From assembly GCA_944325515.1 (NCBI GenBank), contig CALVAO010000008.1, forward strand, positions 1 through 64,000: a DNA stretch of 64,000 nucleotides. Reading direction: 5' to 3'. Within the stretch, counting starts at the first letter, position 1, and every line of letters starts with the position of its first letter. The stretch comes from Candidatus Gastranaerophilales bacterium (lineage in GTDB: Bacteria > Cyanobacteriota > Vampirovibrionia > Gastranaerophilales > Gastranaerophilaceae). This document shows, one piece after another, positions 19,403 through 35,557 of the stretch. Position numbers and translations under genes: made by a program. The notes under the pieces are model-generated. The model made no database searches, had not been told where the DNA came from, and saw only the letters and a program-made list of their open reading frames with translations.

Positions 19403-20146
19403 ATGACTGATAATAATGATGAAAGCATAATAGCGCACCTCGAGGCTTTGAGAGAAACTCTTTTAAAATGCATTACATCACTTGCGGTAATGCTTGTTCC
19501 TATGCTTTTTTTAGCACCTAAATGTCTTGATTTGTTTATTAGATTTTTAACAAAAGACACAAATCTGGTTTTGAACTATTTTTCGCCTGCGGAAGTTTTT
19601 CTTATCCAGATAAAGTTCGCGCTTGTTCTTGATTTGGTTATTTGTTTTCCGTATATAGCAAAACAGGTTTGGAATTTCTTTGTACCTGCGCTTTACGAAA
19701 ACGAAAAGAAGTTTATAACCTCAATTGTTCTGACTTCAAGCAGCTTGTTTATTCTTGGGGTTATTTTCTGCCTGTTTGTAATGCTTCCGCTTGTAATAAG
19801 ATTTGGCTTGAGTTTTATCACAGCTAATATTCACGCAATGTGGGGAATTACAAATATGATAAATATGTCATTGTGGATGTCTGTAGCGTTCGGCGTAATG
19901 TTTCAATTCCCGTTAATTACATACTCTCTTATAAAGCATAATATCGTATCATATGAAACCTTCAGCGATAAACGCCCGTATGTAATTGTAATCCTTTTAA
20001 TACTAGCAGCAATCTTTACCCCGCCGGATGTTTTAAGCCAGTTAATATTATTTACACCTACATACTTATTATTTGAGCTCGGGCTTTTGTGCGCTAAATT
20101 TAAGCAAAAAAACTTGACTGATAGCGGCTCTTATGATGTAAAATAG
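19403..20146 (+). CDS. tatC: Twin-arginine translocase subunit TatC
   Basis: 247 residues, six membrane segments. Receptor for twin-arginine signals. The N-terminus has IIAHLEALRETLLKC, the TatC HLxELRxR-type motif in altered form, and FSPAEVFLIQIKFALV. No tatB is nearby, so a minimal TatAC system is likely. Confidence 0.94.
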   Translation: MTDNNDESIIAHLEALRETLLKCITSLAVMLVPMLFLAPKCLDLFIRFLTKDTNLVLNYFSPAEVFLIQIKFALVLDLVICFPYIAKQVWNFFVPALYENEKKFITSIVLTSSSLFILGVIFCLFVMLPLVIRFGLSFITANIHAMWGITNMINMSLWMSVAFGVMFQFPLITYSLIKHNIVSYETFSDKRPYVIVILLILAAIFTPPDVLSQLILFTPTYLLFELGLLCAKFKQKNLTDSGSYDVK

Positions 20147-20150
20147 TTTT

Positions 20151-20846
20151 ATGGATAAATATATAGACTTGGATTTTGCAAAACTTGATATCGAAAGGCA
20201 GAAACGCAGAGGGTGTTCGGAAGCTGTTTTTTGTGAGTGCAAAACGACAGAACAGTTAATAAAAATTTTTTCGGAGTTTAATAAGCAGGGACAAAATGTT
20301 TTAGGAACACGTGCTGCAAAAGAACAGGCAGAGGCTTTGCAAGAAGAGTTTAAAGAGATTAAATATAATCGAGAGGCTGGAACTATAACTCTTATTAATA
20401 ATCCTATAGAAAAAATTGGCGAAGTCGCAATTTGTACCGGAGGAACCGGAGATATTCCGGTTGCGGAAGAAGCAGCCGAAACTGCAATGTTTTACGGAAG
20501 CAATGTCTCTAAATATTATGATATCGGTGTTGCCGGTATCCACAGGCTTTTTGACAAAATTGATAATATAAGAAAAGCTAATGTAATTATTGCAGCTGCC
20601 GGCATGGAAGGAGCGTTAGGCGGAATTATCACGGGGCTTGTTGATATTCCCGTGATTGCAGTCCCGACTTCCGTTGGATACGGAACTTCTCTCAAAGGAG
20701 TCTCCGCTCTTCTTACAATGCTTAATTCATGCGCGGAAGGTATGACTGTTGTAAACATTGATAACGGATTTAATGCAGGCTACAGCGCCTCACAAATAAA
20801 TAGAAAAATTGCAAGTAACAAACAAAATAATGAGCGGAGCGAATAA
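20151..20846 (+). CDS. larB: LarB, nickel-pincer cofactor carboxylase
   Basis: 231 residues. LarB carboxylates and hydrolyses nicotinic acid adenine dinucleotide in making the nickel-pincer nucleotide cofactor. The C-terminal part is PurE/NCAIR mutase-like: AICTGGTGDIPVAEEAAETA, YDIGVAGIHRL, VIIAAAGMEGALGGIITGLVDIPVIAVPTSVGYG. TAAAAT ends exactly 6 bases before the ATG, with TTGACT upstream at 20114 (19-base spacing), suggesting its own leaderless transcript besides read-through from tatC. Confidence 0.93.
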   Translation: MDKYIDLDFAKLDIERQKRRGCSEAVFCECKTTEQLIKIFSEFNKQGQNVLGTRAAKEQAEALQEEFKEIKYNREAGTITLINNPIEKIGEVAICTGGTGDIPVAEEAAETAMFYGSNVSKYYDIGVAGIHRLFDKIDNIRKANVIIAAAGMEGALGGIITGLVDIPVIAVPTSVGYGTSLKGVSALLTMLNSCAEGMTVVNIDNGFNAGYSASQINRKIASNKQNNERSE

Positions 20847-20900
20847 AATTTCTTCTCAACATCTAAACTACTAAACTTATAAACAACATAGGAGAAACCC

Positions 20901-21638
20901 ATGGATTTATATTTTGAATGCAAATCAGGAATTTCAGGCGATATGTCAGTAGGAGCCCTGCTGGACTTAGGTGCGTCAAAAGAAAAACTTGATAGAGCTT
21001 TAAGTTCAATGAAGCTGGAAAATGAATTTCAATATGAAATTACAAAGAAATCAATAAACTCAATTATGACAACAGATTTTAATGTTATTTTATCAAACAC
21101 ACATCACCATCATCACGAACACCGAAATCTTTTGGATGTGAATAAAATTATTGATAAATCTGATATGAGTGAAAAAGCAAAAGAGCTTGCGAAAAAGATT
21201 TTTAAAATAGTAGCGGAAGCAGAAGCTGAAGTGCACGGTAAAGGGGTAAATGAGGTACATTTTCACGAAGTCGGCGCAATTGATTCAATTGCGGATATAG
21301 TTAGTTTTGCAGTTTTATTTGATGATATTAATCCGGAAAAAGTATATTTTTCTACTTTAACGGAAGGACAGGGGTATGTTGAATGCGCCCACGGGCGCTT
21401 GCCGGTTCCGGCTCCTGCTGTTTGCAAAATTGCCGAAAAATATAAACTGCCAATGCGTTTTACGGATAATGACGGAGAAATGGTTACCCCGACAGGTGCT
21501 GCAATAGCCGCCTCACTTTATACGGGAGAAAAACTTCCGGAAGAATTTATAATCAATAAAACCGGATATGGCGCAGGGAAAAGACCATACAAAAGCCCGA
21601 TTTTAAGAGTTATGTTAATAAATGAGAAAGGAGAATAA
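20901..21638 (+). CDS. larC: LarC N-terminal domain protein (LarC1 only)
   Basis: 245 residues; full-length LarC is about 400. LarC inserts nickel into the pincer cofactor using CTP. The sequence is the LarC1 part: FECKSGISGDMSVGALLDLG, a His run after SNT (residues about 67-73), EVHFHEVGAIDSIADIV, GRLPVPAPAVCKI, DGEMVTPTGAAIAA and GYGAGKRPYKSPILRVML. The C-terminal LarC2 domain, which carries the nickel-insertion chemistry in characterised LarC, is not encoded before the next gene. AGGAGA precedes the ATG. Confidence 0.9.
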   Translation: MDLYFECKSGISGDMSVGALLDLGASKEKLDRALSSMKLENEFQYEITKKSINSIMTTDFNVILSNTHHHHHEHRNLLDVNKIIDKSDMSEKAKELAKKIFKIVAEAEAEVHGKGVNEVHFHEVGAIDSIADIVSFAVLFDDINPEKVYFSTLTEGQGYVECAHGRLPVPAPAVCKIAEKYKLPMRFTDNDGEMVTPTGAAIAASLYTGEKLPEEFIINKTGYGAGKRPYKSPILRVMLINEKGE

Positions 21639-21640
21639 TT

Positions 21641-22549
21641 ATGCATTTAGGAAATGGAATTATTTGCCCTGTTACAGGAGTTCCAATGCTTGCATTAGCC
21701 GGAGTAACAGCATTTTATGCTTATAAAAAAGCAAAGAAAGAGTTTACTAAGGATAAAATTTTACCCGCTGTAAGCTTAACAGCTTTAGTTTTTGGCTTGC
21801 AGATGATAAATTTTGCAATCCCGCAAACCGGCTCAAGCGGTCATATTGTGGGCGCAATTCTGCTGGCAGCGCTTTTAGGACCATACACAGCGTTTCTTGC
21901 GATGTGCGCAATACTTCTTGTTCAAGCTGTATTCTTCGCTGACGGCGGTCTCTTAGCTTTAGGATGTAATATTTTTAATATGGGATTTCTTGCCTGTTTT
22001 GTAGCTTATCCCCTTTTATATAAACCGCTCGCGGAAAGAAAAAGAATGTTCTCAGGAGCTTTAATTGCTTCAGTTGCAGCTCTTCAATTAGGCTCAATAG
22101 CCGTTGTCGCAGAAGGTGCTTTATCCGGTTCTATTGCTGGAAGATTAGGAGATTTTACTCTTTTAATGCAGGGAATTCATCTTCCGATTGGTATTATTGA
22201 AGGAATTGTAACGAGTGCTTTTGTTATTGCATCAAAATTGGCTGACTCTAAAAAAATCTCTGTTACTGCCGGAAGTTTAGCTTTCATTCTTGCGGGCTTT
22301 GTTTCGCTTTATGCTTCTCAAAAACCGGACGGGCTGGAATGGTCGCTTCTTAATATATCAGATTCTGTTGTAATGCAGACACAAAATGCGCTATATCCAA
22401 TTGTTGAAGCTGTTCAAACAAAATCTGCAATACTGGCGAATATGGCGCAGATTCCTGCAAATCTCTTAGGTCTGTTTGCTGTTGGAATATTAATGTTTAT
22501 TCTAAGCTTTGCAATGACTCGAGAAACGGTAAAAGAAAATGCAAAATAA
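21641..22549 (+). CDS. NikM/CbiM-like nickel ECF transporter membrane subunit
   Basis: 302 residues with about seven hydrophobic segments. It begins MHLGNGIICPVTG; in CbiM/NikM the N-terminal Met-His supplies metal ligands. Typical stretches are SSGHIVGAILLAALLGPYTAFLAM and GCNIFNMGFLACFVAYPLLY. The C-terminal 80 residues (VSLYASQKPDGLEWS, then one membrane segment) resemble the CbiN/NikN partner, so it may be an MN fusion. The ATPase and QO partners are not in the window. Lying between larC and larE, it presumably brings in nickel for the cofactor. Confidence 0.85.
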   Translation: MHLGNGIICPVTGVPMLALAGVTAFYAYKKAKKEFTKDKILPAVSLTALVFGLQMINFAIPQTGSSGHIVGAILLAALLGPYTAFLAMCAILLVQAVFFADGGLLALGCNIFNMGFLACFVAYPLLYKPLAERKRMFSGALIASVAALQLGSIAVVAEGALSGSIAGRLGDFTLLMQGIHLPIGIIEGIVTSAFVIASKLADSKKISVTAGSLAFILAGFVSLYASQKPDGLEWSLLNISDSVVMQTQNALYPIVEAVQTKSAILANMAQIPANLLGLFAVGILMFILSFAMTRETVKENAK

Positions 22550-23321
22550 ATTTGAAATTTTAGAAAATTATTTAAATAAACTGGATGAGCAAGGCATAAG
22601 CCTTGCTTTTTCCGGCGGAATTGATAGTTTGCTGCTTCTTTATTTATGTAAAAATAAAAATGTAAAAGCTTATACATTTAAATCTGTTTTTCAAACTGAT
22701 GAAGAAATAGATTTTACAAAAGATATTTGCAAAGAATTTTCTGTGGAGCAAGAAATAATTCAATATTATCCGCTTGAAGATGAGTTAATAAAAAATAACC
22801 CGAAAGACAGATGTTATTACTGCAAAAAACTTATGTTTTCTCTCCTTGCAAAGCGTGCCGGCAAAACCGTAATAATAGACGGCACAAATGCTGATGATTT
22901 AAATTGCTATAGACCGGGACTTAAAGCTCTGAAGGAACTCGGTATAATATCTCCGTTTGCTGAATGCGGAATTACCAAAGAAGAAATTCGGGAATATACA
23001 AAAAGATGTGGTATAAAGTATTTCTCCAAACCCTCAACCCCTTGTTTTGCAACAAGATTTCCATACAATACCCAAATAACAGAAAACGATATAGAAAAAG
23101 TAAAATCAGCAGAAAAAATTCTGCAACAAAACGGATTTGCATCCTGCAGAGTGCGGTTACATAATGATATCGCCAGAATAGAAATAAATCCAAACAAATT
23201 TAATGAGATTATAGAAAAAAAAGATTTATTAATAAAACAACTGAAAAAAATCGGAATAACATACATCACTCTTGACTTAGAGGGCTTCCGAAGCGGCAGC
23301 ATGGATATAGAATTAAAATAA
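22539..23321 (+). CDS. larE: LarE, sulfur transferase for nickel-pincer cofactor
   Basis: 260 residues. ATP-dependent sulfur insertase. The PP-loop SGGIDSLLLLYL is near residue 26; RCYYCKKLMF and STPCFATRFPY supply three cysteines, as in LarE forms proposed to hold an Fe-S cluster. It overlaps the previous gene by 11 bases. With larB, larC and the nickel transporter it gives the cofactor pathway, but no larA racemase is visible here. The stop lies 3 bases before the inverted-repeat element. Confidence 0.93.
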   Translation: MQNKFEILENYLNKLDEQGISLAFSGGIDSLLLLYLCKNKNVKAYTFKSVFQTDEEIDFTKDICKEFSVEQEIIQYYPLEDELIKNNPKDRCYYCKKLMFSLLAKRAGKTVIIDGTNADDLNCYRPGLKALKELGIISPFAECGITKEEIREYTKRCGIKYFSKPSTPCFATRFPYNTQITENDIEKVKSAEKILQQNGFASCRVRLHNDIARIEINPNKFNEIIEKKDLLIKQLKKIGITYITLDLEGFRSGSMDIELK

Positions 23322-23324
23322 AAA

Positions 23325-23512
23325 ATCTTGCATCATTTTTAATAAAATGGTGCAGGGGTAAATATAAGGGTGTGAAAGCAAGAATTCACGCTATATCAGC
23401 CAATCTTCTTATTATTCTTAACAAAACTTTAACAGGTGTTGCATATAAGATATTTGGTGATATTATTAATTTATACTAGTAACGCACCATTTTATTAAAA
23501 ATGATGCAAGAT
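23325..23512. repeat. 188-bp element bounded by perfect 29-bp inverted repeats
   Basis: Bases 23325-23353 and 23484-23512 are exact reverse complements (29 of 29), enclosing 130 bases. Inside is a hairpin-forming ATATAAGGGTGTGAA...TTCACGC stretch (23359-23393) and, in the + orientation, possible promoter hexamers TTGCAT (23439-23444), 16 bases, TATTAT (23461-23466) pointing at the recombinase and glycan genes. No target-site duplication is evident. The layout resembles an invertible promoter segment or a MITE; see findings. Confidence 0.85.
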
Positions 23513-23551
23513 ATAGAAGCCGTAATAAGGATGAACATTAGGATTTAAGCT

Positions 23552-24097
23552 GTGGTCAAGGATTCACCGATAAAAGACAGAGTAATAATTAATCTTATAA
23601 AGCAATATTATTTTAACAAAAAGGATTATCGTAATCTGTTGTTCTTTTTAATGTCAATAAATACTGGATTAAAGATTAATGAACTTTTGGACTTGAATGT
23701 CGGTGATGTAAAAGGTAAGGATTTTTTGATAGTCAGACATTGTCTAGCCGGTATAAAGAAAAGAATTCCTCTAAATGATGAGATAAAAGATGTTATATCA
23801 AGAGTTGTCAAGCACAGCAAAAAATCTGATCCGTTATTTATTTCAATACGCGGCAAGCGTCTGGAGCGAACAACATTATATAACCAGTTTAAAGACATGT
23901 GTGAAGAATTAGGTCTGGAAGATGATATATCGATTTGTTCTCTGCGTAAGACATTTGGTTACCATTATTATCAAAAATCAAAAGATCTGTCATTTTTACA
24001 GTGGCTGTTTAATCAATCCAGCGTGCTTTCAACAATGGAATACATTGGAATAAGCGAAAATTTAAGTGCCAGATTTAATCCGGAATTTAGTTTATAG
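23552..24097 (+). CDS. Degenerate FimB-sized tyrosine recombinase
   Basis: 181 residues, catalytic domain only, the size of FimB/FimE invertases. Starts GTG. It matches phage-integrase motifs: INTGLKINELLDLNVGDV, GIKKRIPLNDEI, SLRKTFGYHYYQKSKD and the final SVLSTMEYIGIS. Arg132 of the LR motif and the nucleophile Tyr164 are present, as is the hairpin Lys. However, the first catalytic Arg is Lys41, the His of HxLR is Cys129, and the His of NHSS is Gln155. It lies 40 bases after the perfect inverted repeats and directly before the glycan genes. It could flip that element, bind it without cutting, or be a relic. Confidence 0.8.
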   Translation: MVKDSPIKDRVIINLIKQYYFNKKDYRNLLFFLMSINTGLKINELLDLNVGDVKGKDFLIVRHCLAGIKKRIPLNDEIKDVISRVVKHSKKSDPLFISIRGKRLERTTLYNQFKDMCEELGLEDDISICSLRKTFGYHYYQKSKDLSFLQWLFNQSSVLSTMEYIGISENLSARFNPEFSL

Positions 24098-24105
24098 GAG
24101 GAAGA

Positions 24106-25608
24106 ATGCAAATAATAATACAGGCAGGCGGTAAAGGAACGCGATTGGAGGGTTTGACAAGAAACAAACCTAAATGTCTTGTTCCAGTTAACAATTTGCC
24201 GATTATTTTTTATGCATTCCAACAATTTCCGGATGCAGAATTTACGATTATAGCCGATTACAAAACCGATGTTCTGGCGAAGTATTTGGATGCTTTCGGG
24301 ACAAAATACAATTACAGAATAATAAAAGCAGTAAAAAAAGGTACAATTTCCGGCATAAAAGAAGCTATTTCTTCATTTTCTTCTGATGAATCTTTTATGA
24401 TAATGTGGTGCGACCTTATTTTATCGAAAGATTTTGAATTTCCTAAAGAAAAAGGTAATTATATCGGGATTTCTAAGGATTTTGAGTGCCGCTGGTCATA
24501 TATTGACGGGAAATTTGTAAAAGAACCGTCTAAAGAAAACGGTGTAGCGGGCTTATTCATATTTGAGAACAAAAAAATTCTGGAAGATATTGCGGAAGAA
24601 GGTGCACTGGTAGGCTGGCTTGAGAATCGAAATATTTCCTTCAAGCGTCTTGATTTGTATGGCTCAAAGGAAATCGGCACACTGCTTTCTTATTCAGATA
24701 ATAACGATTCAACTCCTCGCTGCCGTCCTTTCAATTCAATGGAGTTTAAGGGAGATGTAATCATAAAACGCGGAATTAATGAGCAGGGGCAGAAAATTGC
24801 GCGTGACGAAATCAACTGGTACAAGCATGTTAAAGAACTCGGTTATCAGAATATTCCGGAGATATACGAGTATGAACCTCTAACGATGAAGCGTGTAAAA
24901 GGTAAGAACATTTTTGAGTATGATTGTTTGACAAAGACTCAAAAAAGAGAGATTTTAAGAAAACTTATAGAGGCGCTTAAGGAGCTTCACAATTTGGAGC
25001 CTGCCCAGCCTGTAAACTTGCAGGATGTTGAGGATAATTTTATAAACAAAACCTTTCAGCGGCTCTCCAGAGTAGAAAAACTTGTTCCTTTTGCGGACAA
25101 AGAGTTTATAAAGATAAACGGCAATTATTACAAAAATGTTTTCTTTAATAAAGAAGAGTTGATTGAAACGGTCAAATCCGTTTATCCGAAGGAATTCCGT
25201 CTAATACACGGTGATTGTACTTTTTCAAATCTGATGTTTGACACATATGATATGAAAGCTGTATTGATTGACCCCCGCGGATATTTTGGCAATACAAAGT
25301 TTTACGGTGACGTGGATTATGACTGGGCGAAACTCTATTATTCATTGAAAGGTGAATATGACCAGTTTAACCGCAAGAAATTTACGCTTGATATACGAGA
25401 AAAGGATGTGGAGATTGCGATTAAGCCTAATAACTGGGCTGATATGGAAGAATTTTTCTTTGACTGCCTGTCTGGTGTAAATAAATTCAAATTAAAATTG
25501 CTCCACGCCATAATCTGGTTGAGTTTAACCACTTATGCTTGGGAAGATTATGACTCCATTTGCGGGGCGTTTTATAACGGAATCGTTAAGTTAAACGAGG
25601 TAATATGA
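24106..25608 (+). CDS. Sugar/alcohol-phosphate nucleotidyltransferase fused to APH-type kinase
   Basis: 500 residues, two domains. Residues 1-215 are a nucleotidyltransferase: AGGKGTRLEGLTRNKPKCLVPV is the NTP-binding signature, with WCDLI as the metal-binding Asp region. Residues about 225-480 are a choline/aminoglycoside kinase fold: HGDCTFSNLMFD is the catalytic loop and VLIDPRGYFG the DFG-like metal site. The pairing parallels LicC plus LicA, so an activated phospho-substituent for a glycan is likely, but its identity cannot be read. GGAGGAAG precedes ATG. First enzyme gene after the recombinase; its stop overlaps the next start. Confidence 0.82.
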   Translation: MQIIIQAGGKGTRLEGLTRNKPKCLVPVNNLPIIFYAFQQFPDAEFTIIADYKTDVLAKYLDAFGTKYNYRIIKAVKKGTISGIKEAISSFSSDESFMIMWCDLILSKDFEFPKEKGNYIGISKDFECRWSYIDGKFVKEPSKENGVAGLFIFENKKILEDIAEEGALVGWLENRNISFKRLDLYGSKEIGTLLSYSDNNDSTPRCRPFNSMEFKGDVIIKRGINEQGQKIARDEINWYKHVKELGYQNIPEIYEYEPLTMKRVKGKNIFEYDCLTKTQKREILRKLIEALKELHNLEPAQPVNLQDVEDNFINKTFQRLSRVEKLVPFADKEFIKINGNYYKNVFFNKEELIETVKSVYPKEFRLIHGDCTFSNLMFDTYDMKAVLIDPRGYFGNTKFYGDVDYDWAKLYYSLKGEYDQFNRKKFTLDIREKDVEIAIKPNNWADMEEFFFDCLSGVNKFKLKLLHAIIWLSLTTYAWEDYDSICGAFYNGIVKLNEVI

Positions 25609-27861: not shown

Positions 27862-29121
27862 ATGAAACATTTTTTTCAACAAATTTTTTCAATAAAAAAT
27901 AATGAAAAATGTTATAAAGTTATTACTTTTATGGGATTAAAGTTAAAACTAATAAATATAAAAAAATTATTATCAAAAAGATGGGATGTATTTCAAAGAA
28001 AAGAGAGAATTGATAATAATTTATTTACAAATTTGTACTTAAAACTTAACTATCTTGAACATAAAAATGATACTTTTAATCCTAAAAATTTATTCGATAA
28101 AAAAATCCGACCGCTAAATAATTGTTATTTAGGAACAAATATTTCGTATATTAATTATTTATTTACTAATTTGGAAGGTTCTTTTAATCGCAATGACCCG
28201 CGAGAAAAATTTCCCAATTTCTTTTATATATGTGGAATTGCTACTCAACCAAATCACGTCGCTACAATATCAGAAGCTTTAAAAAATGGTAGCCAAGTAT
28301 ATATTATTGAAGATTGTTTCTTAAGAAGCATATTTTCTCATGTATATGATGCAGAACCAAAATATATTAAATCTATTGGTTTTACAATTGACGACATTAC
28401 ACACTATGTAGATGCGTCAATTCCATCAAGGTTGGAACAGTGGTTAAATGACAAAACTTTAATTATTACAGAGGAGCAAAAAGTCAGAGCTAAAAAGTGC
28501 ATTGATAAAATTGTGAAAGCACATTTGTCTAAATATAATAATCAGCCAATTTATACACCAAATATCGGAAGAGAAGGTGCTCCTAAAGTTTTAGTTGTAG
28601 ATCAATCTTATGGCGATTGGAGTATTATAAAAGGTCGAGGTTCAGAAGATATTTTTGAATTAATGTTGAATAAAGCTATTGAAGAAAATCCAGAAGCTGA
28701 TATTATTGTAAAAACTCACCCAGATACAATGTCTGGCAAGAGAGGCGGATATTATACTGGGCTTGTGCAACATGATAATATTTATCCCATGACAGAACCT
28801 ATTAATCCAATATCTCTTATTAACTACTGTGATAAAGTTTATGTATGTACTACTCAGTTTGGATTTGAAGCATTAATGTGTAACAAAGAAGTTCATGTTT
28901 TTGGTGTACCTTTTTATCAAGGTTGGGGTTTAACAATAGATGAACAAATTTGCGAACGTAGGACTAATAAGAGAACGTTAGAAGAATTATTTTATATTGC
29001 ATATATTATGTATTCACATTACGTGAATCCAGAAACTAAATCTAGGTGTGAAATAGAAGAGGCGATAGATTATTTAATAAAGTTAAGAGATGAATATTTT
29101 CAAAAGGTAATTTGTAAATAA
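27862..29121 (+). CDS. KpsC/LipB-like capsule polysaccharide protein
   Basis: 419 residues. It matches the capsule-synthesis family that includes the Kdo transferases KpsC/KpsS: VVDQSYGDWSIIKGRG, NPEADIIVKTHPD, GKRGGYY, NPISLINYCDKVYVCTTQFGFEALM and VFGVPFYQGWGLT. KpsC has two such modules; this has one plus an N-terminal extension of about 120 residues. It therefore probably transfers a linker sugar for a surface glycan. It opens the very AT-rich part of the locus, and its stop overlaps the next start (TAATG). Confidence 0.82.
   Translation: MKHFFQQIFSIKNNEKCYKVITFMGLKLKLINIKKLLSKRWDVFQRKERIDNNLFTNLYLKLNYLEHKNDTFNPKNLFDKKIRPLNNCYLGTNISYINYLFTNLEGSFNRNDPREKFPNFFYICGIATQPNHVATISEALKNGSQVYIIEDCFLRSIFSHVYDAEPKYIKSIGFTIDDITHYVDASIPSRLEQWLNDKTLIITEEQKVRAKKCIDKIVKAHLSKYNNQPIYTPNIGREGAPKVLVVDQSYGDWSIIKGRGSEDIFELMLNKAIEENPEADIIVKTHPDTMSGKRGGYYTGLVQHDNIYPMTEPINPISLINYCDKVYVCTTQFGFEALMCNKEVHVFGVPFYQGWGLTIDEQICERRTNKRTLEELFYIAYIMYSHYVNPETKSRCEIEEAIDYLIKLRDEYFQKVICK

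Positions 29122-31151: not shown

Positions 31152-31158
<7 letters not shown>
30235..31158 (+). CDS. Glycosyltransferase-like protein, paralogue C
   Basis: 307 residues, the shortest of the three related proteins because the N-terminal 60 residues are missing. Shared blocks are VFYLRAGLGESYVFYFMIEEY...KKPCIICH, FIFLIPNANFFHLLSSTFW, GYDIFVN, LTIAEAYYLASLSKGIVGIRGGFSEV. The loop reads GIRGG instead of GLRSG. The last bases overlap the acyltransferase gene. Confidence 0.55.
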
Positions 31159-32336
<1,178 letters not shown>

Positions 32337-32391
32337 AAATTATCAATATAGTATAGCAGTGTAAATAACATAAGAAAGGCATAAATAAAAC

Positions 32392-33423
32392 TTGGATAAA
32401 AATACATCATACAAAATTACAATAATCGTTCCTGTGTACAATACAGAAAATTGGCTTAAAAATTGTCTGGACAGCCTTGTTAATCAGAGCTTGAAAGAAA
32501 TTGAACTACTCTGTATCAATGACGGCTCAACAGATAATTCACCCGCAATTTTGCAGGAATATGCGAAAAATGACTCTCGTATTACTCTAATCAACACTTC
32601 GCATATCGGCATCGGTCCCGCCAGAAACCTCGCTCTGGATAACGCAAAAGGCGAGTACATAATGTTTGTAGATTCCGACGACTGGGCAGAGCCTAATATG
32701 TGTGAAATTATGTACAATACAGTCATAAATAAAAATGTCGATATTGTTTTCTGTGCAAATACAGCATGGCGCGACGGCGCTGTATTATCCCAAATTCCTT
32801 TGAGTACGGAATTTAAAAAAAGAAAACTCAAGATTAAACCCTCTGACATTTTTACGTTTGATGATATATGTAATTATAATATGGTTCTTATGCTCACTCC
32901 GTGGGCAAAAATATTTAATAGAAATTTCTTGCAGAAAAATAATATCAGATTCGGGAACTACAGCTGGGGTGAAGACCAGATTTTTAATATCCACGCTCGA
33001 CTGCTCGCAAAAATGTGCTATATCGATGATTTTCTGTACAATTATAGAAAAGCAAGAAGCGGAAATTCCGGAAGTCTTGCTCAATCATTCCCGATAAAAG
33101 AAATCTATGACGATATAAGCAATCTCTACCGCTCATATAACAAAGAAAAATATTTGGACAAAAGTTTTTTGCATTGGGTTCAAGCATTTCCGGTATGGGG
33201 CTATAAAAAATTACCCGAAAACAAAAGAATGGATTATCTCAAAAACTGCAAAAGCTTTATGACAAAAGCACAATATAAACTGCTTAAAAAAAGATTAGGA
33301 AAAGATGTTTTCGCAAATACGCTGAAATCAATATTTTCGGTTGAAAACGAATACTCAAATAATAACAAATACAAATTAATATCTGTTTTAGGAGCAAAAA
33401 TGAAAGTTAAAAGTTGGAGATAA
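32392..33423 (+). CDS. Family 2 glycosyltransferase
   Basis: 343 residues. N-terminal GT2 domain: ITIIVPVYNTENWLKNCLDSL, the LLCINDGSTDNSP nucleotide-binding stretch, and the FVDSDDWAEP DxD motif. It likely adds a sugar to the surface glycan. The start is TTG at 32392, with AAGAAAGG 13 bases upstream; there is no in-frame ATG before the conserved domain. Base composition returns to the genome norm here. Confidence 0.88.
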   Translation: MDKNTSYKITIIVPVYNTENWLKNCLDSLVNQSLKEIELLCINDGSTDNSPAILQEYAKNDSRITLINTSHIGIGPARNLALDNAKGEYIMFVDSDDWAEPNMCEIMYNTVINKNVDIVFCANTAWRDGAVLSQIPLSTEFKKRKLKIKPSDIFTFDDICNYNMVLMLTPWAKIFNRNFLQKNNIRFGNYSWGEDQIFNIHARLLAKMCYIDDFLYNYRKARSGNSGSLAQSFPIKEIYDDISNLYRSYNKEKYLDKSFLHWVQAFPVWGYKKLPENKRMDYLKNCKSFMTKAQYKLLKKRLGKDVFANTLKSIFSVENEYSNNNKYKLISVLGAKMKVKSWR

Positions 33424-33781: not shown

Positions 33782-35557
33782 TTGAACTTACTAGACAAAA
33801 TAAAAACCTCTCAAGCATACATAAACTATTCCCGCATCTTACCATACGTGAAACCATACTGGTTTCGGGCGCTTCTGGCGATGCTGATATGTATTCCGAT
33901 AGGCTCATTAGACGCCGTAATCGCGCTGTCGCTCAAACCCTACATGGATCTGGTAATGGTAGAAAAAACCATCGAATCCCCGTGGTATATTCCGTTCGGC
34001 ATAGTCGCGTTTACCTCAATCCAGGGATTGTTAAACTATACAGCCACATATCTTAATACATGGGTCGGCGGCAAGATAACAAATGATTTGAAAATGACAC
34101 TTTATCAAAAAATGCTTACCTTTGAAACCGGTTACTTTGATAAAAAACGCTCCGGAGATATTATTTTTAGATTCAATAACGACGCAGATGTCGCTTGCTC
34201 CGGCTTGCTGGATAACCTCAAAACCTTTGTGTCAAGAATCTTCTCATCCGCCTCTCTCGTTTGTGTTCTTTTCTATAACTCGTGGCAGCTTGCTCTAATC
34301 GCCACAGTAATATTAGGCTGTGCCTTCGCCCCTTTAGCAAATATCAGAAAACGCATAAAATCGGTTATGGATAAATCGGTTACAGCCGGCTCCGCAATAA
34401 TCACGGCATACAACGAGTCCTTCTCCGGTAATAAAACCATAATTTCATATAACCTTGCATCCGAACAAGAAAATAAATTCAAAAATATTTTGTCTAATAT
34501 ATTCACCCTAAAAATCAAAATGATACAACGCACCAGCTGGCTTTCCCCGATGATGCACGTAATCGTATCAATCGGAATAGGTATTGCAATCGGCTACGGC
34601 TCGCATCTTATCTTGACCCACCAGATTACCAGCGGAAACTTCGTATCATTTATTACAGCGCTTATTATGCTTTATCAGCCGGTTAAAAATCTGGGGAATA
34701 ACTTTAACTCCGTGCAGTTCTCCTTTATGGCAATAGAAAGAATCTTTGATGTACTTGATTCAAAACCAAAGATTCAAGATAAACCGGAAGCAATAGAGCT
34801 GAAAGGTATAAATGACAAAATAGAATTCAAGAATGTTAATTTTGAGTATATAAAAAATAAACCGGTCTTGAAGAATATAAATCTTACAGTCAAGAAGGGC
34901 GAAGCAACCGCTTTTGTGGGGAATTCCGGCGGCGGTAAAACAACAATAGTTAATCTTATTCCTCGCTTTTATGACATTAAATCGGGTTCAATAACAATTG
35001 ATGGTGTGGATATAAGGGATTATACCTTGCATTCGCTCCGCCAGAATATCGCAGTAGTGTTTCAAGATAACTTCCTATTCTCTGGCACAATAAGAGAGAA
35101 CATTCTGCTCGGAAACAAAAACGCATCGGAAGAGCAGATTAATCAAGCAGTCAAAATGGCTTATCTGGATGAATTCATCGCAACATTAAAAGATGGTCTT
35201 GATACTCAGATAGGTGAGCGCGGTATTTTACTCTCGGGCGGACAAAAACAGCGTGTAGCAATCGCACGCGCGTTTTTAAAAGACGCCCCGATAATTATTT
35301 TGGATGAAGCGACTTCTGCATTGGATAACAAAGCAGAGGCTATAGTTCAAAAAGCAATAGATAACTTGATGAAGGACAAGACGGTATTTGTAATTGCCCA
35401 CCGCCTGTCAACGATTCAGAACGCGGATAAGATAGTTGTAATCAATCAAGGCGAGATAGTGGAGCAGGGCACGCATTCCGAGCTTCTCTCTATCTCAAAC
35501 GGCGCTTACAAAACCCTTTATGAAATGCAGTTCAAAAAACAAAAAGTAGAGGCGTAA
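33782..35557 (+). CDS. MsbA-like ABC exporter
   Basis: 591 residues, a half-transporter with six membrane segments (about 20-310) fused to an ATPase. Walker A GNSGGGKTT near 384, signature LLSGGQKQR, Walker B IIILDEATSALD, then the H-loop VIAHRLS. Closest in layout to lipid A/glycolipid flippase MsbA and PglK, which suits the glycan genes just upstream. The start is TTG at 33782 after AAAGGAAA. Confidence 0.88.
   Translation: MNLLDKIKTSQAYINYSRILPYVKPYWFRALLAMLICIPIGSLDAVIALSLKPYMDLVMVEKTIESPWYIPFGIVAFTSIQGLLNYTATYLNTWVGGKITNDLKMTLYQKMLTFETGYFDKKRSGDIIFRFNNDADVACSGLLDNLKTFVSRIFSSASLVCVLFYNSWQLALIATVILGCAFAPLANIRKRIKSVMDKSVTAGSAIITAYNESFSGNKTIISYNLASEQENKFKNILSNIFTLKIKMIQRTSWLSPMMHVIVSIGIGIAIGYGSHLILTHQITSGNFVSFITALIMLYQPVKNLGNNFNSVQFSFMAIERIFDVLDSKPKIQDKPEAIELKGINDKIEFKNVNFEYIKNKPVLKNINLTVKKGEATAFVGNSGGGKTTIVNLIPRFYDIKSGSITIDGVDIRDYTLHSLRQNIAVVFQDNFLFSGTIRENILLGNKNASEEQINQAVKMAYLDEFIATLKDGLDTQIGERGILLSGGQKQRVAIARAFLKDAPIIILDEATSALDNKAEAIVQKAIDNLMKDKTVFVIAHRLSTIQNADKIVVINQGEIVEQGTHSELLSISNGAYKTLYEMQFKKQKVEA

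Follow-up and report, generated by a model that had tools for sequence, protein, structure and literature searches.

A probable site-specific invertible segment ahead of an apparently degenerate recombinase gene and a glycan operon in a Gastranaerophilales genome

Introduction

What do two perfectly paired inverted repeats do in front of a small recombinase-like gene and a row of glycan genes, and does that gene operate the repeats or is it itself under their control? The locus that raises this question lies in the window, by which we mean the whole stretch of 64,000 nucleotides analysed here (contig CALVAO010000008.1, positions 1 to 64,000, of assembly GCA_944325515.1, Candidatus Gastranaerophilales bacterium, an uncultured inhabitant of the gut). 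A preliminary description made from the letters alone had suggested a phase-variable switch. In the present study the repeats, the segment between them, the recombinase-like protein and its relatives were analysed by sequence comparison. The features are collected in Table 1.

Table 1. Features of the switch locus and the glycan genes, in window coordinates.
Feature	Position	Strand	Details
Left inverted arm	23325-23353	+	Core 23330-23353, GCATCATTTT-TAAT-AAAATGGTGC; quasi-palindromic recombination site
Invertible segment, 130 bp	23354-23483	.	Single copy in genome; orthologue G027 has it the other way round from G011, G160 and the window
Putative promoter toward glycan operon	23439-23466	+	TTGCAT 23439-23444, N16 (also given as N17/16), extended -10 TG-A-TATTAT 23458-23466
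Right inverted arm	23484-23512	+	Core 23484-23507
Class B recombinase-like protein, 181 aa	23552-24097	+	GTG start; PF00589, E 2.6e-21; first gene of switched operon
Nucleotidyltransferase and APH-type kinase domain protein	24106-25608	+	First glycan gene
Capsule polysaccharide biosynthesis protein	27862-29121	+	PF05159
Acyltransferase and family 2 glycosyltransferase	31152-33423	+	31152-32336 and 32392-33423
ABC transporter (membrane and ATPase domains)	33782-35557	+	End of glycan locus as far as typed

Results

An inverton is expected to have inverted repeats of 10-40 nt around a short segment and to occur in both orientations. Direct comparison of the two arms gave 29 complementary bases out of 29 with 130 nt between them, as the preliminary description had it, so the locus has the first of these features. 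The finder of inverted pairs was also run on 292 intervals of 550 bp from the window and on 300 shuffles. The arm pair scored 29, and because none of the control intervals (0/292) or shuffles (0/300) reached a score of even 16, the pairing is not a product of chance. Both arms are quasi-palindromic around a centre of four bases, as tyrosine-recombinase sites usually are. Elsewhere in the genome the motif GCAYCATTTT-N4-AAAATGRTGC occurs without mismatch at three places (C4:668, C26:14589 and C30:8). The centre varies by locus, being TAAT in the window, AATC on contigs C26 and C30 and ATGC on C4, and where arms are perfectly paired it is identical in both arms of the pair.

Contig C4 of the window's genome (G000) holds a second arm-like pair (L007, 667-692 and 865-890; 26 nt, 85%), with centres that differ between the arms. 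It is located upstream of a minus-strand ORF and adjoins lysS, with no recombinase gene nearby, and is possibly an orphan or decayed switch. Single arm-like sites in two other genomes (L132 in G024 and L133 in G010) had no partner arm of comparable quality and were taken as unrelated hairpins.

Lysyl-tRNA synthetase places the window's genome in the order Gastranaerophilales: its identity is 73-77% with the enzyme of Candidatus Gastranaerophilales and related MAGs, as against 50% with that of a Lachnospiraceae MAG. The same locus, with the arm motif of the window, was found in three close species (G011, G160 and G027), which encode 73% identical proteins. Between these orthologous loci both orientations of the segment occur. 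The inter-arm DNA of G011 and G027 aligned with a score of 96 when inverted and 27 in the same orientation (shuffle maximum 34), between colinear flanks (100/240). The window's segment gave 45 inverted versus 20 in the same orientation against G027 (shuffle maximum 27), and 57 in the same orientation versus 18 inverted against G011; the G160 segment is oriented as in G011. When the window is compared with G011 and G027, the flank on the side of the recombinase-like gene is alone recognisably shared, and it is colinear; the left neighbour, which is larE in the window, is not the same. A second, independent pair of orthologous loci, G020 and G008, scored 203 inverted versus 35 in the same orientation (shuffle maximum 41), with both flanks colinear (228/131). 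Weaker alignments among more distant loci were of mixed orientation and were left out of the argument. Because orthologous loci thus carry the segment in opposite orientations, G027 against G011, G160 and the window, and G020 against G008, the reading of 23325-23512 as a site-specific invertible switch is well supported by sequence comparison, and the phase variation suggested at the outset gains its main backing.

In a comparison of G011 (L068, contig C13) with G160 (L203, contig C3), a block made up of the switch and some 150-200 bp to its left and right (about positions 1030-1600 of L203) shows about 99-100% identity; the DNA upstream of this block is unrelated, and the recombinase-like and glycan genes are about 80% identical. 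This pattern suggests that the switch region was recently exchanged between the two species.

Contigs C26 and C30 of the window's genome both start exactly at an arm; they share 27 identical bases, with matching AATC spacers, and then diverge. C26 carries a gene related to that of the window (class B, see below). Other contig ends with common sequence share mostly longer stretches. The natural reading of a contig break at the arms would be that a flipping segment was left unassembled between C26 and C30. Palindromic sites at contig ends generally (4 of 68 ends) are not a strong statistic, so this pair alone was used. The window locus was assembled straight through. Contig C16 (positions 1-30) starts exactly on the site ATGTAACACAATATGTATTGTGTTACAT, which forms an inverted pair in C10:46110-46535; this may be another recombination site at a contig end.

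The ORF that follows the segment starts with GTG, preceded by AGGA at 23540-23543. Its product matches the Pfam family Phage_integrase, and its predicted structure (pLDDT 86.9) has the tyrosine-recombinase catalytic fold, with XerA (5hxy, TM 0.73) and Tn1549 Int as the best PDB matches. The family profile and fold of a competent tyrosine recombinase are present, but the catalytic residue set is not. Residue mapping placed K41, C129, R132, Q155 and Y164 at R148, H244, R247, H270 and Y279 of XerD; Arg I, His II and His III are replaced in the protein by K41, C129 and Q155, and Arg II and the tyrosine are kept. It scored 35.5 bits with the NCBIfam FimE-like invertase model (cut-off 222) and 20.1 with the FimB-like model (cut-off 221). 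The "FimB-sized recombinase" of the preliminary description therefore belongs to the family but is not of the canonical FimB/FimE type. The R225K mutant of Tn1549 Int, an R to K change at Arg I, is a standard inactive mutant, and removal of the beta-hairpin compromises the Tn1549 transposase (PMC5871717). Judged from its substitutions, the window's protein is probably catalytically degenerate, and its gene is more likely to be a switched gene than the engine of the switch.

A family sample of 98 distinct members was collected, most of which have the canonical residues (class A). The window's protein is one of 16 rows that form a clade supported at 100/100 (class B). At the Arg I position, class B proteins have K, M, A, G or similar, with one exception that has R (L210); His II and His III are absent from every class B protein aligned, and in some members Tyr is also replaced by Phe and the beta-hairpin is shortened. 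When 192 genomes of the order were searched with a profile, class B scored about 200 bits or more versus 163 or less for class A. Several class B pairs are saturated; for those with a measurable dS the dN/dS ratio is 0.04-0.11, which indicates that class B is kept by purifying selection.

An inverted pair with a score of at least 18 ends 10-73 bp before the start codon in 21 of the 30 class B genes, as against 0/292 control intervals and 0/300 shuffles. A class A gene is located just upstream on the same strand at 15 class B genes, 12 of them with an inverted pair between the two genes. Downstream genes were typed at nine class B loci and are glycan genes at seven (window, G011, G000-C26, G007, G011-C21, G008 and L023); one of the other two leads to a radical SAM and an acyltransferase gene, and one to a transposase. 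The window has the stand-alone form, a switch and a class B gene with no class A neighbour. Canonical class A paralogues are encoded elsewhere in its genome, on contigs C9, C10, C16 and C27, none of which could be linked to the GCAYCATTTT arm sequence. The closest relatives of the C9-type enzyme are found in G027 (78%) and G011 (74%), with just 67% in G160, and the species are close relatives (LysRS 95-96%), so that co-occurrence was uninformative for finding a trans-acting class A enzyme. At two other loci (L117, G009:C25 and L119, G026:C16), quasi-palindromic inverted sites (TAACATTTT.. and TAACACAAT..) flank a class A recombinase gene, and the invertible segment there may contain its own recombinase.

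The recombinase-like gene does stand at the head of a glycan locus, as had been proposed; domain typing placed glycan genes directly downstream. The first of these encodes a sugar nucleotidyltransferase fused with an APH-type kinase domain. On the other side, larE ends at 23321, 4 bp before the left arm. The genes at 19403-23321 (TatC, LarB-like, LarC-like, CbiM and LarE-like) form a nickel-pincer cofactor set, in which the LarC-like gene matches the N-terminal part of the profile only (1-235 of 375), with no LarC C-terminal part seen.

A strict sigma-70 scan of 23300-23600 found no site. Training a promoter model on 185 upstream regions from the genus yielded an extended -10 element (TGTTA[AT]AAT-like), and the best site of this model in the window's segment is the extended -10 TGATATTAT with the -35-like TTGCAT. 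The "plausible promoter hexamers" of the preliminary description were thus borne out only in part: the strict scan found none, and the genus-trained model ranked an extended -10 element first. The score of 5.12 is marginal by itself, the null distribution having its 90% point at 4.85 and its 95% point at 5.75. Because it lies below the latter, support for the promoter comes from conservation: the same extended -10 element points toward the gene in G011 and away from it in G027, and a TGTTATTAT element points toward the gene in G020 and in the opposite direction in G008. By itself, TGNTATTAT is frequent, with 19 matches in the window. In the distant relatives G012, G007 and G243, TTGACT-N17-TATTGT or TATTCT is located just upstream of the class B gene (spacing by eye). 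In the assembled orientation the promoter would be active and read into the operon, i.e., the ON state. A scan of 23300-23600 for intrinsic terminators found none, hence none between larE and the left arm, and read-through from larE could blunt the OFF state.

Discussion

We propose that a tyrosine recombinase recombines the two quasi-palindromic arms and thereby flips the 130-bp segment, whose extended -10 element would, as assembled, drive the glycan operon together with 23552-24097. A catalytically degenerate recombinase paralogue would then come first in the switched operon. Many related loci have a canonical class A enzyme on the opposite side of the switch (A - switch - B). Because the window locus is without a neighbouring class A gene, its switch would most likely be flipped in trans by a class A paralogue from C9, C10, C16 or C27. 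The class B protein, made in the ON state alone, would bind the arms and bias or hold the switch. For this reading as a whole, an inverton with its promoter in the segment, a degenerate class B gene first in the operon, class A in trans and class B as modulator, we estimate a probability of about 0.72. A more specific suggestion is that class B proteins in general are catalytically dead and made in the ON state only, that they attach to the arms either by themselves or in tetramers shared with class A, and that they control the direction or the persistence of inversion. It is tentative, and we rate its chances at somewhat less than even.

The same switch could be served by the adjacent class B protein if this were an invertase whose active site worked in changed form, with Lys in place of Arg I and with Cys and Gln in place of the two histidines. 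No class A gene adjoins the stand-alone loci (window, G011, G027, G160, C26, G012 and G007), whose proteins (B1) without exception retain Tyr, Arg II and the Lys of the beta-hairpin, whereas in several class B proteins paired with class A Phe takes the place of Tyr and the hairpin is shortened; in the four close species the arm motif and the B1 sequence also occur together. We nevertheless consider such an invertase doubtful, although a serious candidate, as Arg I is essential in studied enzymes, to the point that Tn1549 Int R225K serves as an inactive control (PMC5871717), both catalytic histidines are gone in all class B proteins aligned, and canonical class A enzymes exist in the genome. 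A relic, which flipped formerly and is now locked in this lineage with class B read constitutively from the segment or from larE, is unlikely. The arms have kept their 29/29 match, whereas the DNA between them differs widely from one species to the next; this points to recombination that continues or to selection acting on the arms. The paralogous locus C26/C30 in the same genome, moreover, breaks at its arms. For a relic speak the unbroken assembly of the window locus, the lack of a class A gene nearby and the position of larE right before the left arm with no terminator found.

Two readings leave inversion aside. Distant relatives of the window's protein occur in phages (35-39% identity, mostly Streptococcus phages) and on plasmids, as would be expected of an integrase left from a prophage or plasmid, but the phage and plasmid collections held no match above 60%, no phage gene adjoins, and class B forms a clade of its own, whose genes stand first in glycan operons in many genera of the family; in the lack of a close relative this origin was rejected as very improbable. 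A MITE or other transposable element, to which the terminal inverted repeats and the short AT-rich interior could belong, was given almost no credence. Many copies elsewhere in the genome had been named beforehand as the sign of a MITE; they were sought, and the inter-arm segment occurs once in the 2.1 Mb genome. Also against it speak the position of the pair, immediately before the class B gene at 21 of 30 loci, and the inversion between orthologues with colinear flanks.

The proposed switch resembles several known systems. The E. coli fimS element with FimB and FimE likewise combines an invertible promoter with small tyrosine recombinases consisting of the catalytic domain only. In E. coli, fimB and fimE are located before fimS, and the surface genes after it. 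Contrary to what had been stated earlier, the gene order is thus not that of fim: fimB and fimE precede the element and are active, whereas the recombinase-like gene of the window comes after the segment, first in the switched operon. The Xer recombinases (XerA, XerD and XerH) share the fold of the window's protein, as aligned over the catalytic domain; the protein differs from them by its degenerate active site and the absence of an N-terminal DNA-binding domain. The invertible capsule promoters of Bacteroides (Mpi/Tsr) and gut invertons are, like the segment described here, short invertible promoters before surface polysaccharide operons, although the Bacteroides promoters belong to another phylum and another promoter type, and Mpi is a serine enzyme. 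From a distance, the Mpi invertase can act in trans (PMC5386303). The flagellar and cwpV switches of C. difficile, which are served by the tyrosine recombinase RecV, comprise a 154-bp segment with 21-bp imperfect inverted repeats, were first recognised by comparing strains in opposite orientation, and show one recombinase acting in trans on several switches (PMC5386303). They agree with the window locus in the short segment between inverted repeats, the kind of enzyme and the manner of recognition; unlike in the window, RecV is catalytically active and encoded outside the switched operon, and no degenerate recombinase gene heads the C. difficile operon. In a survey of gut invertons, nearby invertase genes were generally not positioned for expression from the inverton promoter (PMC11892184); class B genes, by contrast, are so positioned.

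In the literature searched, largely without subscription papers, we found no report of invertons in Gastranaerophilales. The present analysis offers genetic evidence for the control of surface glycans by DNA inversion in these non-photosynthetic gut relatives of cyanobacteria. It also reveals a recurring layout of class A recombinase, switch, degenerate class B recombinase and glycan operon, which raises the question of why a selected, active-site-deficient recombinase stays the first gene of the switched operon. If the role suggested here for class B is true, these proteins would provide the phase variation of surface glycans with a feedback memory of its own, and one that is conserved among the genera of Gastranaerophilales.
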